From a virus: a stretch of 30,970 bases of DNA. The notes below the pieces were generated by a model. It saw nothing but the letters and a program-made list of their open reading frames with translations, was not told the origin of the DNA and made no database searches. Location: positions 1 through 30,970 of IMG/VR virus record IMGVR_UViG_3300008111_001318. One strand, 5' to 3'. This document shows positions 117 to 15,824 of the stretch, one piece after another. Position 1 is the stretch's first letter; each line of letters begins with the position of its first letter. The position numbers and the translations under genes are program-made.

Positions 117-404
117 ATGAAACTTCGCACCAGATCAATTCTGCAGGAACTTAATGAAATTGCCGAAGTACGCAATACGGACAGCTTGATCGAAAGCCGC
201 GCCACTAATATCATTAATTCTGCTATTAATCTGTTGGAAAGCATACACAAGCATTATGACGCTGAATCAGCGGATGAGCTTGAACGTAGGCTTATTAATG
301 CTATTAAAGGACAAGATCCCAGTAAGTTTACTCGTGGAGTACGTAGGCTTGCTGAAGCACGTAAGACTAAAAAGAAATTAGAAGAATCCAATGACAATCA
401 GTAA
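117..404 (+). CDS. Small conserved-type phage protein, unknown function
   Basis: I do not recognise a named family. The 95-residue product is mostly helical and charged, with no cysteine, no membrane segment and a lysine-rich end (KTKKKLEES). Its N-terminus contains an L-x-E (LQELNE) of the kind cut by T4-type prohead proteases, so a head-associated role is possible but only inferred. AGGAAA lies about 10 nt before the ATG. The end overlaps the next gene by 14 nt, which suggests translational coupling and a shared transcript with the two enzymes that follow. Confidence 0.75.
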   Translation: MKLRTRSILQELNEIAEVRNTDSLIESRATNIINSAINLLESIHKHYDAESADELERRLINAIKGQDPSKFTRGVRRLAEARKTKKKLEESNDNQ

Positions 405-1206
405 TCTATTCGAAGGGGGCAATGTATTCAAAGGCCCTGACAAGCAGCCATTAACACAGCGTATTGCTACGGGTGATGTAGAGGAAACTATTCTTTACAT
501 TGAAAAAATTACAGGCCTAGACTTTACTAAAGAAAAAGATCTAGATGATAAAAAACCTGTAAAATGGCTAGGCACCACTGGACGCAAAGAAGATCCGGAT
601 GGCACATTTGAACGCAACAGTTCCGGAGATCTAGATCTTTCTGTAGATGCTAACGAAGTAGATAAGAAATCATTTGCAGAAAAGTTAATCAGTCAATTTG
701 GTAAAGAAAATGTCAAACTAAGCGGCGACAATGTACACTGGAAAACTCCTATCAAAGGCGATCCGGCTAATGGGTTTGTACAAGCAGATTTCATGTTCTC
801 AGCCAATCCCAAGTTCCAACAAGGTAGCATGATAGGCGGACAAGGTGAGTATCGTGGCGAACATCGTCATATTGTGTTAAGCTCAATTGCTCGTGCTAAG
901 GGCATGAAATACAGTCCTAAACACGGACTACTCAATGCTACCACTGACGAACTACTTCCCGATGGCAACGATTGGAACAACATTGCCAAACAGCTACTAG
1001 GTCAAACAGCCACAGTCAAAGACATTCGTTCGGTTGATGCTATTCTAAATTATATTAAAAAACTGCCCAACTACGAAGAACTAGTTGCAGGTGCAAGAGA
1101 AACACTGGGCAAACAGGGAATTGAATTGCCTAAGAATGAAGCCTTTGAAAGCTATCAACCGGGAACAATAGGTTGGATGCGCAGAATGATAGACCTTACA
1201 AAATGA
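391..1206 (+). CDS. Nucleotidyltransferase-fold protein (polymerase-beta-like), probably virion-associated
   Basis: The 271-residue product carries the pattern of the nucleotidyltransferase superfamily: a small-residue turn followed by G79-D-L-D82 (SSGDLDLSVD) and a third acidic residue in VQAD133F, which would give the metal-binding triad D80, D82, D133. These enzymes transfer a nucleotide to RNA, protein or a small molecule; the substrate cannot be told here. No membrane segment is seen. The gene lies in an overlapping string (14 nt with the gene before, ATGA overlap with the gene after) and pairs with a ligase-like protein, so the two may work together. Motif spacing supports the fold well; the exact activity is unknown. 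Confidence 0.65.
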   Translation: MTISNLFEGGNVFKGPDKQPLTQRIATGDVEETILYIEKITGLDFTKEKDLDDKKPVKWLGTTGRKEDPDGTFERNSSGDLDLSVDANEVDKKSFAEKLISQFGKENVKLSGDNVHWKTPIKGDPANGFVQADFMFSANPKFQQGSMIGGQGEYRGEHRHIVLSSIARAKGMKYSPKHGLLNATTDELLPDGNDWNNIAKQLLGQTATVKDIRSVDAILNYIKKLPNYEELVAGARETLGKQGIELPKNEAFESYQPGTIGWMRRMIDLTK

Positions 1207-2303
1207 GAGCATTTGAATTCCTAACCGAAGCTGAAGCAGCACCTGCTCCCAAGAAAGTGGGCAGAGAGTTTAACCACCTAGAAGATTTAGTGTTCACAGA
1301 AGCCAACGGTGCTGTTAAAGCTATCAAGATTCTAAAAGATCTAGCCAGTCCCAATACCAGTATTACTATCAAATGGGACGGCAATCCCACAGTCTATTGG
1401 GGACGTGAAGAAGACGGCTCATTCCGTATGGTTGGTAAAAACAACTGGGGACGTGAAGAAGGCAAGAGCTCAAGCCCAGAAGAACTAAAACAGTTTATCA
1501 TGAGCCGTGGCAAGGGCGAAGAATGGCGTGCCAAATTTGCCGGAGATATGGCTGCATTATGGCCCGTATTTGAAAAGGCGACTCCTGCAGAATTCCGTGG
1601 TTATGTATATGGAGATATTCTATTCCATCCAGGTAAACCTTATAAAGGTGGCGATGGTCGTATATCGTTCACTCCTAACCAAACAACCTACTCTGTTACA
1701 GGCAACAGTGAAGTTGGACGTCAGCTGACCAAAGCTAAAATAGCAGTAGCCGCTCATAAAGTATTCAGCTACTTTGGAGACAAGAGTGGTGAGGACTTCA
1801 CAGACCCTGAACAATTTAGCAGCAATCCAGAACTTAAAGTATTTGGCTTAACCACAGTTAGCCATAGACCCGCAGTTGGTGCAGAAAATCTTGCAAAAAT
1901 TGAAGCTCTAGCTAAAAATCAAGCAGCAATTAATAATTTATTAGCACCTGTTGCAGGTATGGGCTATTTGCAAACAGAAATATACACGTTTGTTAATACT
2001 AAATCAAAAGACAAACAGCTAGATGATATCAACACTGAAGCCTTTATGGCCTTCGTGCAAAAAACTCCCGCAAAAGCAGCCAAGATACAGGCACACAGTG
2101 ATGCCCACCCGGGTGTAATGGACAAGCTGTTTGAACTTGTGCGTGAGATTATGGCAGCTAAAGACGAAGTAATTCGTGAGCTTGATCAAGCAGAGGGCGA
2201 TATCACTGCTACCACAGGCGGCAAACCGGGCGGTGAAGGATATGTAGCTGGCGGTTCAAAACTAGTACCTAGAGACCGTTGGACTCCATTTAGACCTGAC
2301 TAA
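1203..2303 (+). CDS. Ligase-like KxDG protein (DUF6267-like) with capsid-targeting-like N-terminus
   Basis: The ATG at 1203 overlaps the upstream stop (ATGA) and starts a 366-residue protein; an ATG 30 nt upstream in the same frame lies inside the previous gene and is less likely. K57-W-D-G60 resembles motif I (KxDG) of covalent nucleotidyltransferases such as RNA/DNA ligases, and FRGYVYGDILF (131-141) resembles a later ligase motif. The first ten residues, MRAFEFLTEA, closely match the T4 internal-protein capsid-targeting pattern (MKxYxEFIAE), with a likely prohead-protease site after LTE. I therefore infer a protein packaged in the head and possibly delivered with the DNA. The family name is from memory; ligase chemistry is an inference. 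Confidence 0.65.
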   Translation: MRAFEFLTEAEAAPAPKKVGREFNHLEDLVFTEANGAVKAIKILKDLASPNTSITIKWDGNPTVYWGREEDGSFRMVGKNNWGREEGKSSSPEELKQFIMSRGKGEEWRAKFAGDMAALWPVFEKATPAEFRGYVYGDILFHPGKPYKGGDGRISFTPNQTTYSVTGNSEVGRQLTKAKIAVAAHKVFSYFGDKSGEDFTDPEQFSSNPELKVFGLTTVSHRPAVGAENLAKIEALAKNQAAINNLLAPVAGMGYLQTEIYTFVNTKSKDKQLDDINTEAFMAFVQKTPAKAAKIQAHSDAHPGVMDKLFELVREIMAAKDEVIRELDQAEGDITATTGGKPGGEGYVAGGSKLVPRDRWTPFRPD

Positions 2304-15088: not shown

Positions 15089-15292
15089 ATGGTAACAGGA
15101 AAAGTAAAATGGTTTAACGACGCCAAAGGTTTTGGTTTTATTACACCGGACAATGGCGGCAATGATCTATTTGCACATTTTTCACAGATTAATTCGAGTG
15201 GCTTCAAAAGTCTACAAGAAGGACAGAGTGTAAGATTTGAAGTGACTATGGGTCAAAAAGGCGAGCAGGCTAGCAATATTCAGCCAGCCTAA
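15089..15292 (+). CDS. CspA-type cold-shock RNA chaperone
   Basis: The 67-residue protein matches the cold-shock domain over its full length: [14 protein letters not shown] carries RNP1 and DLFAHFS is RNP2. Csp proteins bind single-stranded RNA/DNA, melt mRNA structure and can act as antiterminators. AAGGAAA lies 8 nt before the ATG. The stop is directly followed by the tmRNA acceptor piece, only a few nt away, so the mRNA and tmRNA precursor may be one transcript. CspA-like genes occur in several phages. Confidence 0.95.
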
Positions 15293-15299
15293 GAAATTG

Positions 15300-15360
15300 T
15301 TGTAATCCCTTCAAAGCGAAGGCGTTGCGGACCCGGGTTCGACCCCCGGCAGGTCCACCA
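15300..15360 (+). ncRNA. ssrA: tmRNA acceptor piece (3' part) of a permuted two-piece tmRNA
   Basis: This is the tRNA-like 3' part of transfer-messenger RNA, placed before the coding piece. The T arm is CCGGG-TTCGACC-CCCGG (15333-15349). CAGGTCC (15350-15356) pairs with GGGCCTG at 15444-15450 in 7 bp, and ACCA ends the piece at 15360. The pair at the third position is G-U, the alanyl-tRNA synthetase identity element. An upstream hairpin CCTTC/GAAGG and GTTGC (15324-15328), able to pair with GCAAC (15484-15488), support a bridge to the coding piece. The 5' end is approximate. It abuts the CspA stop. Confidence 0.9.
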
Positions 15361-15443
15361 TAAGGAGATTAGTATGGACACAGGATATACCACCTTAATT
15401 GGTTTTATCTTTGTTGCTATAGTATTTCTAGTCATTTTATGAT
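15361..15443 (+). other. Intervening segment of the permuted tmRNA
   Basis: The 83 nt between the CCA end and the first G of the coding piece correspond to the spacer removed during maturation. Unusually, almost all of it is an ORF with a ribosome binding site. Confidence 0.8.
15374..15442 (+). CDS. 22-residue membrane peptide inside the tmRNA spacer
   Basis: TAAGGAG lies 6 nt before an ATG, giving a strong start. The 22-residue frame begins MDTGYTTLIG and continues with an unbroken run of twelve hydrophobic residues (FIFVAIVFLVIL), then TGA 1 nt before the tmRNA coding piece. It would make a single-pass membrane peptide. Such peptides act as toxins, holin-like lysis helpers or regulators, but nothing here tells which. 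If real, its mRNA is the tmRNA precursor before spacer removal. It could also be a chance ORF; the well-placed start site is the main evidence. Confidence 0.5.
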   Translation: MDTGYTTLIGFIFVAIVFLVIL

Positions 15444-15662
15444 GGGCCTGTATTGGCTTCGACGTGGCGAGATAGTAGAGACGGCAACACAGTAGGCGAT
15501 GACTGTCAATCAAGCAAATAAAGTAAAAGCAAACGCTGATACATTTGAGTTTGGCGCAATGAGCTTCACTGGAAACACTGTTTCTGGCAAAAGCAAAGTT
15601 GCACTAGCAGCCTAAGAAACTGCAACTCCGAGGTAGTTATACCTTGTCATCCAAAATAGCAG
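15444..15662 (+). ncRNA. ssrA: tmRNA coding piece (5' part, tag reading frame)
   Basis: GGGCCTG starts the acceptor stem, followed by TGGCTTCGACG, the D-loop signature of tmRNA. The tag frame resumes at GCA 15529-15531 and stops at TAA 15613-15615. The 28-residue tag begins ANADTFEFG and ends KVALAA, with the LAA end recognised by ClpXP-type proteases. Together with the upstream acceptor piece it rescues stalled ribosomes and marks the peptides for degradation. The tag is longer than the 10-15 residues usual in proteobacteria. The true 3' end is unmapped, and the terminator follows. Confidence 0.88.
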
Positions 15663-15687
15663 AACCCGCTTCGGCGGGTTTCTTTTT
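15663..15687 (+). terminator. Rho-independent terminator after the tmRNA
   Basis: AACCCGC-TTCG-GCGGGTT forms a 7-bp stem with a UUCG loop and a T-rich tail. A 28-nt stretch including it (15664-15691) is identical to 17829-17856. Confidence 0.92.
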
Positions 15688-15699
15688 GGCATCTACTAA

Positions 15700-15824
15700 A
15701 TAATTCGCAACATAGTTGCTCTATGACTGTTTGGCTAGCAAGGACCCGCAAGGGCAGTGGATGTGTCCGTTAATAGCTTTTTGACGATTGAATTCGAATT
15801 GGGCACTGTAGTGCCTTTTATTTT
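15700..15824 (+). ncRNA. Candidate small structured RNA with its own terminator
   Basis: Between two terminators lies a stretch with nested pairing. GCTA (15734-15737) pairs with TAGC (15774-15777), GGA (15742-15744) with TCC (15766-15768), and CCC-GCAA-GGG (15745-15754) is a stem with a GNRA loop. An upstream GCAAC-ATA-GTTGC hairpin and a closing terminator add to this. No promoter of good quality is seen. The same bases also contain a 16-codon ORF (15723-15773, MTVWLARTRKGSGCVR) without a ribosome binding site, so a short peptide is the alternative. Confidence 0.4.
15802..15824 (+). terminator. Rho-independent terminator
   Basis: GGCAC-TGTA-GTGCC followed by TTTTATTTT. It isolates the tmRNA region from the promoter at 15839. 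Confidence 0.8.

Follow-up and report, generated by a model that had tools for sequence, protein, structure and literature searches.

Large eukaryotic DNA viruses package repair sets, made up of a family X DNA polymerase (PolX) and a ligase, in the virion. The normal substrate of PolX enzymes is DNA. Among bacteriophages, two kinds of system are close to the subject of this work. The internal proteins of T4 are targeted by about ten N-terminal residues, of which residues 4 and 7 act in targeting and residues 8 and 10 in processing (PMC9026906). The gp21 protease of T4 cuts after L/I-X-E (PMC9026906). RlaP is a known RNA-repair nucleotidyltransferase of jumbo phages, where it occurs with an RNA ligase (PMC7824862).

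Here we describe a gene pair that is a variant on T4-type internal proteins and on polymerase-ligase repair pairs, both of which are known. The pair lies in a 31-kb viral genome fragment, IMG/VR virus record IMGVR_UViG_3300008111_001318, positions 1 to 30,970; these 30,970 bases are called the window in this text. The first gene encodes a PolX-like nucleotidyltransferase (NTase), and the second one encodes a KxDG protein of the DUF6267 family. As in the eukaryotic viruses, gap filling and sealing would be carried together in the particle, although the viruses are unrelated and the packaging route is different. The resemblance to RNA ligase with RlaP (PMC7824862) is that a Pol-beta-superfamily enzyme adjoins one with a ligase fold, and that the phages are jumbo phages rich in tRNAs; unlike that system, the NTase is PolX-like with no RlaP match, and the pair has capsid-type leaders. 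The features of the locus are as follows (↓ marks a candidate cleavage site).

117..404, + strand: upstream gene, match to a virion-structural PHROG (phrog_11854, E 4.4e-20)
391..1206, + strand: PolX-like nucleotidyltransferase gene, 271 aa (invariant catalytic residues; AF2 model and structural matches)
391..414, + strand: MTISNLFE leader of the NTase; a prohead protease may cut at LFE↓G, after base 414 (conserved; disordered)
571..636, + strand: catalytic motif G61-T-T-G64 ... S78-G79-D80-L-D82 (invariant columns; aligns with the PolX palm motif)
781..789, + strand: third carboxylate motif Q131-A-D133 (invariant; lines up with (Q)VD of PolX)
808..1038, + strand: PolX-thumb-like region, residues 140-216, YRGEHRH...IARAKGMKYSPKHGLLN... 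(VIA alignment to Pol beta; hhalign with the PolX profile)
1203..2303, + strand: DUF6267 gene for a 366-aa predicted KxDG nucleotidyltransferase of ligase fold (PF19782 E 1.3e-18; AF2 pLDDT 89.9; top structural matches ligases only)
1203..1229, + strand: MRAFEFLTE leader of DUF6267, similar to capsid-targeting peptides; may be cut at LTE↓A, after base 1229 (pattern enrichment; disordered)
1371..1382, + strand: motif I K57-W-D-G60 with the expected adenylated lysine (invariant in 54 homologues)
1614..1616, + strand: D138, motif III-like acidic residue (YGDILF/QGDLLY; invariant)
1881..2186, + strand: insert of residues 227-328, helical, that separates the core from motif IV (DSSP of the model)
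2235..2273, + strand: motifs IV-V, E345-G-Y-V and K353-L-V...R357 (invariant; aligns with EG-V...K-D of the Atu_ph07, Phosso and PA5oct KxDG proteins)

Folds and catalytic motifs of the two proteins

The open reading frame 391-1206 carries the Pol-beta-type signature WLGTTGRKED...NSSGDLDLSVD...VQADFMF. Residues G61, G64, S78, G79, D80, D82, Q131, and D133 are invariant among 43 homologues, and all of them except S78 are still invariant when the homologues from Phosso, Atu_ph07, and PA5oct (25-28% identity) are included. The NTase has no significant family match in Pfam or PHROGs, and a search of the NTase and its relatives with Pfam, PHROGs, and the PolX thumb family gave no PolX match, so a comparison of folds was needed to class the protein. 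The top structural matches of the AF2 model (pLDDT 84.2) are DNA polymerases lambda, beta, and mu: the best 37 Foldseek rows are PolX enzymes (E 4.7e-4 for Pol lambda), and residues 14-216 align with residues 139-335 of Pol beta, i.e., with its palm and thumb, at a VIA Z of 8.5-9.1. The hhalign comparison with a nine-protein PolX profile is collinear over the palm and thumb motifs and weak (P 0.01-0.016; score 24.7 vs a maximum of 23.5 in 100 column shuffles). Since the fold matches and the profile score is low but above all shuffles, we call the NTase PolX-like, which is not to say a proven PolX. The initial annotation had proposed a polymerase-beta-type protein; the invariant motifs agree with a Pol-beta-superfamily nucleotidyltransferase, and the fold sharpens the assignment to a family-X-polymerase-like protein. 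By its model, the NTase is a member of this superfamily and is predicted to adopt the palm and thumb fold known from family X polymerases.

The NTase shares with Pol beta, lambda, mu, and the minimal viral PolX enzymes the palm and thumb fold and the G[ST]...SGDxD...QxD motifs, and differs from them in lacking the 8-kDa domain and a Pfam PolX match and in having extra C-terminal helices. Two other identities were considered and are not supported. The NTase has no match to PF10127 (RlaP), and hhalign against one RlaP sequence is at noise level; the pair-bearing contigs G001 and G002 have no PF10127 match either. It likewise has no match to PF01743 (CCA-adding enzymes), again with hhalign at noise level.

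The second gene starts at the ATG at 1203, a longer TTG frame being a scan artefact. Its product matches DUF6267 (PF19782) with 67.9 bits vs the Pfam cut-off of 27. Residues K57, W58, D59, G60, K79, D138, E345, G346, K353, and R357 are invariant among 54 homologues, the most distant of which have about 21% identity. The AF2 model has a nucleotidyltransferase core; there is no OB fold in the model, which stops after motif V, and the insert 227-328 is helical. All 50 listed VIA matches of the model are RNA or DNA ligases, with a best Z of 6.8 over 179 residues. The scores are 6.8 for Naegleria RNA ligase, 6.1 for the trypanosome editing ligase, 5.6 for T4 Rnl2, and 5.5 for human DNA ligase IV, where rows within about 1 Z are to be read as tied. 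The first Foldseek match is DNA ligase IV (E 0.018). The structural Z is moderate, and the weight for the ligase reading comes from the uniform list of matches together with the invariant motifs. DUF6267 has no match to Pfam RNA_ligase, the Atu_ph07 counterpart has a weak one (E 0.002), and hhalign against sets of RNA and DNA ligases places DUF6267 with neither. A PDB sequence search with the NTase and DUF6267 profiles returned chance matches only, and no mention of DUF6267 was found in the literature searched.

Structural prediction against RNA ligase and nucleotidyltransferase families had been set beforehand as a test, and it returned PolX for the first protein and ATP-dependent ligases for the second. 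The earlier description of the second protein as a ligase-like KxDG protein thus stands, given KWDG at K57-G60, the invariant motifs, and top structural matches that are all ATP-dependent RNA or DNA ligases. On the strength of the model, we regard the product of 1203-2303 as a KxDG nucleotidyltransferase of predicted ligase fold.

Pairing, spread, and genomic neighbourhood

At 1203-1206 the genes share an ATGA overlap that recurs in relatives, in keeping with the translational coupling that had been read from the sequence. The dN/dS ratio is 0.03-0.07 for both genes, i.e., both are under strong purifying selection. A close search of IMG/VR gave at least 532 NTase-related and at least 288 DUF6267-related stretches. 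Among the fetched loci, the two genes co-occur in 237 NTase hits (duplicate contigs included) and are mostly directly adjacent.

More remote pairs have other arrangements. In Atu_ph07 and Phosso a KxDG gene lies 5' of the NTase gene and overlaps it, whereas in PA5oct it lies three genes upstream of the NTase homologue. On motifs IV-V, the KxDG set of these three phages aligns with DUF6267 at an hhalign score of 33.1 vs a shuffle maximum of 20.5. Deeply separated phages thus have in common the pairing of a PolX-like with a KxDG protein, although the order of the genes varies.

The gene at 117-404 has homologues in PA5oct, Atu_ph07, and Phosso; it is conserved and tied to the pair in several deep lineages. 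The placement of the pair among head genes, as initially annotated, holds in part: the neighbours match two virion-structural PHROGs, and most annotations in the syntenic cluster of PA5oct record detection by mass spectrometry (MS), but the same run of genes includes an exonuclease and a ribonucleotide reductase. Elsewhere in the window, a permuted, phage-encoded tmRNA lies at 15257-15706 (Rfam RF04321, 134.6 bits); it also matches beta_tmRNA, which suggests a betaproteobacterial host. A 353-kb relative (G001) also has a predicted tmRNA (L293:4882-5318), more than 30 tRNA genes that cover most amino acids (L294, L295, L308), and a separate ATP-dependent DNA ligase.

DUF6267 proteins of T4-like marine phages and cyanophages share with the window protein the family, the KWDG, EGYV, and KLVxR motifs, and the leader type, whereas the marine members have no NTase neighbour. 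In marine T4-like loci such as L153, L274, and L276, the gene after DUF6267 encodes a protein with a nucleotidyltransferase domain of the HIGH type (PF01467); this protein is often leader-tagged as well (MRFRQFIIEA in S-WAM1). The gene upstream of the marine DUF6267 genes is PD-(D/E)XK-like in look, as judged by eye.

Leader peptides and candidate prohead protease sites

Both proteins begin with a short segment that precedes the enzyme fold and is modelled with pLDDT below 50 (residues 1-8 of the NTase; residues 1-3 and 5-11 of DUF6267). In the NTase, [LIVM]xE↓[GAS] stands at the end of the leader, on the fold boundary, in 110 of 114 distinct homologues; those of PA5oct, Atu_ph07, and Phosso have no leader and begin at the boundary with M-GG or M-SG. 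Leaders of DUF6267 relatives (MRFWELLLE, MLSFKKYLSE↓A, MTTFLDFISE↓A, MKNFLTYLKE↓S, and others) stand ahead of a conserved HLED-type core, and a broad leader pattern is matched by 132 of 159 distinct members. On the 353-kb relative, a broad leader pattern proved too loose (9 of 449 ORFs vs 9 of 1749 internal Met), and a stricter one was used to assess enrichment. The strict pattern follows 161 of 5671 N-terminal-type ATGs vs 8 of 13180 internal ATGs, which shows that it does not arise by chance. DUF6267 proteins account for 135 of these 161 N-termini, and the remainder are spread over roughly a dozen further families.

In some relatives the two genes are separated by inserted genes, and these are leader-bearing as well. 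One of them (L248:4862-6001) encodes a CCA-adding enzyme (PF01743, E 2.1e-36) with the leader MRAFEFLIED; others (L186:1856, L189:6798, L193:1963) encode basic proteins that end in DUF6321. A short Cys/His-containing insert, WSKKYKSSINCSNPKGFSQKAHCAGRKK, lies between the leader and the enzyme in the DUF6267 proteins of L041, L102, L104, L116, L119, and L220 and is also present in one of the basic leader-bearing proteins (L189:6798); it looks like a mobile module. The protein encoded at L186:2886-4250 has a cysteine segment resembling HiPIP (PF01355, E 9e-4, below the cut-off) inserted between the leader and the DUF6267 core.

The leaders are like those of the T4 internal head proteins (IPI-III and Alt) in being short and N-terminal, with an aromatic/hydrophobic pair and an L/I-x-E end. 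Several unrelated proteins share the leader, as in T4, and a gp21-family protease is found, here in relatives: the two long contigs that carry this pair encode a Peptidase_S77 protein, as do PA5oct, Atu_ph07, Phosso, and S-WAM1, and there is no protease gene in the 31-kb window. The cargo differs, being a polymerase-like and ligase-like pair whose packaging is predicted, and the leaders in the window have 9 and 8 residues rather than 10. MRAFEFLTE had been described as near-identical in pattern to the T4 targeting peptide. It does have the aromatic residue at position 4, the hydrophobic pair, and the E; the wording is nevertheless too strong because the peptide is one residue short of the ten in T4. 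The exact ten-residue spacing occurs in distant DUF6267 members, e.g., MLSFKKYLSEA and MTTFLDFISEA.

The PA5oct NTase homologue is annotated as 'structural protein, ESI-MS/MS'. The MS list of this phage also flags a ribonucleotide reductase, and an FtsH-like protein is annotated as structural there, which means that the list cannot be read as one of packaged proteins only; the PA5oct KxDG protein EST35_0228 is not flagged as MS-detected. The capsid-targeting reading gains strong, if indirect, support from the leader enrichment, the cleavage-type sites at the boundary between disorder and fold, the gp21-family protease in near relatives, and the MS-annotated PA5oct homologue. As a prediction from sequence, capsid targeting of both proteins is well supported.

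Proposed role and alternative readings

What was first noted from the sequence is confirmed, and its initial interpretation is supported in part. The computation gives the folds, the conserved catalytic motifs, the selection, the conserved pairing, the leader enrichment, and the protease in relatives. From these we infer packaging, cleavage, activity, substrate, and timing, and consider it on balance probable that the proteins form a capsid-packaged pair that fills gaps and seals ends in nucleic acid, with RNA (tRNA) slightly preferred as substrate. The N-terminal leader would draw each protein into the prohead core, where a gp21-type prohead protease would remove the leaders after LFE and LTE. 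The mature enzymes would enter the host with the phage DNA and act before phage gene expression. The NTase would add nucleotides by means of its family-X-type palm and thumb, and DUF6267 would join ends through a lysine-AMP intermediate at K57. Their substrate may be RNA (tRNA) cut by host anticodon nucleases, which we slightly favour over nicked or gapped DNA. This lean is due to the lack of an OB fold, to KWDG-N/A-P where the DNA ligases of these phages have KxDGxR, to the CCA-adding enzyme in one operon, to the weak RNA_ligase match of the Atu_ph07 counterpart, and to the more than 30 tRNA genes and separate DNA ligase of the 353-kb relative. It is weakened by the fact that PolX enzymes normally act on DNA.

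A packaged pair devoted to DNA, with the PolX-like enzyme filling short gaps in the incoming phage DNA and the ligase sealing its nicks or joining its ends before replication, is a serious contender, if one we would not bet on. All top structural matches of the NTase, thumb included, are DNA polymerases lambda, beta, and mu, the Foldseek list for DUF6267 opens with DNA ligase IV, and phage IME392 is annotated with a PolX gene that adjoins a putative DNA ligase gene. However, the ligase model has neither an OB fold nor KxDGxR, relatives have a separate ATP-dependent DNA ligase, and the best VIA matches of DUF6267 are RNA ligases, with rows within about 1 Z tied. It is unlikely that the enzymes are active but unpackaged, made early or late in the cell, with the leader a chance or regulatory N-terminus. 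The leaderless NTase homologues of PA5oct and Atu_ph07 would fit such an origin, but the enrichment of the leader, its presence on unrelated proteins encoded at the locus, the cleavage-type site at the fold boundary, and the gp21-family protease in relatives all argue against it.

We give still less credence to an injected takeover pair similar to T4 Alt, in which the KxDG protein transfers AMP to a protein or small molecule and the NTase is a second modifier. KxDG chemistry could in principle deliver AMP elsewhere, the helical insert of the DUF6267 model is unusual, and in distant marine phages DUF6267 genes precede a HIGH-type nucleotidyltransferase rather than a PolX-like one; yet all listed structural neighbours are polynucleotide ligases, and a PolX-like partner fits end repair better. 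Reuse of the enzyme folds as inert structural head proteins, to which the matches of the neighbours to virion-structural PHROGs could point, is highly improbable, as every catalytic residue is invariant across wide divergence.

Returning to the packaged repair pair with its slight RNA preference, we extend it only tentatively, and with less than even confidence, to a broader claim: several tailed-phage lineages may carry in the head a polymerase-plus-ligase kit with T4-type leaders that mends tRNA or incoming DNA before expression, with DUF6267 as a new ligase family. DUF6267 is a Pfam family with no assigned function across marine, cyano-, and jumbo phages, and it would thereby obtain a testable one. 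The leader with its gp21-type site offers a simple rule to find other injected proteins in uncultured phages. If packaged, the pair would be a protein-level phage answer to host nucleases at time zero, in contrast to T4 Pnkp and Rnl1, which must first be synthesised. If this is true, the genome of a large phage may enter the host together with a phage-encoded kit for nucleic-acid repair.
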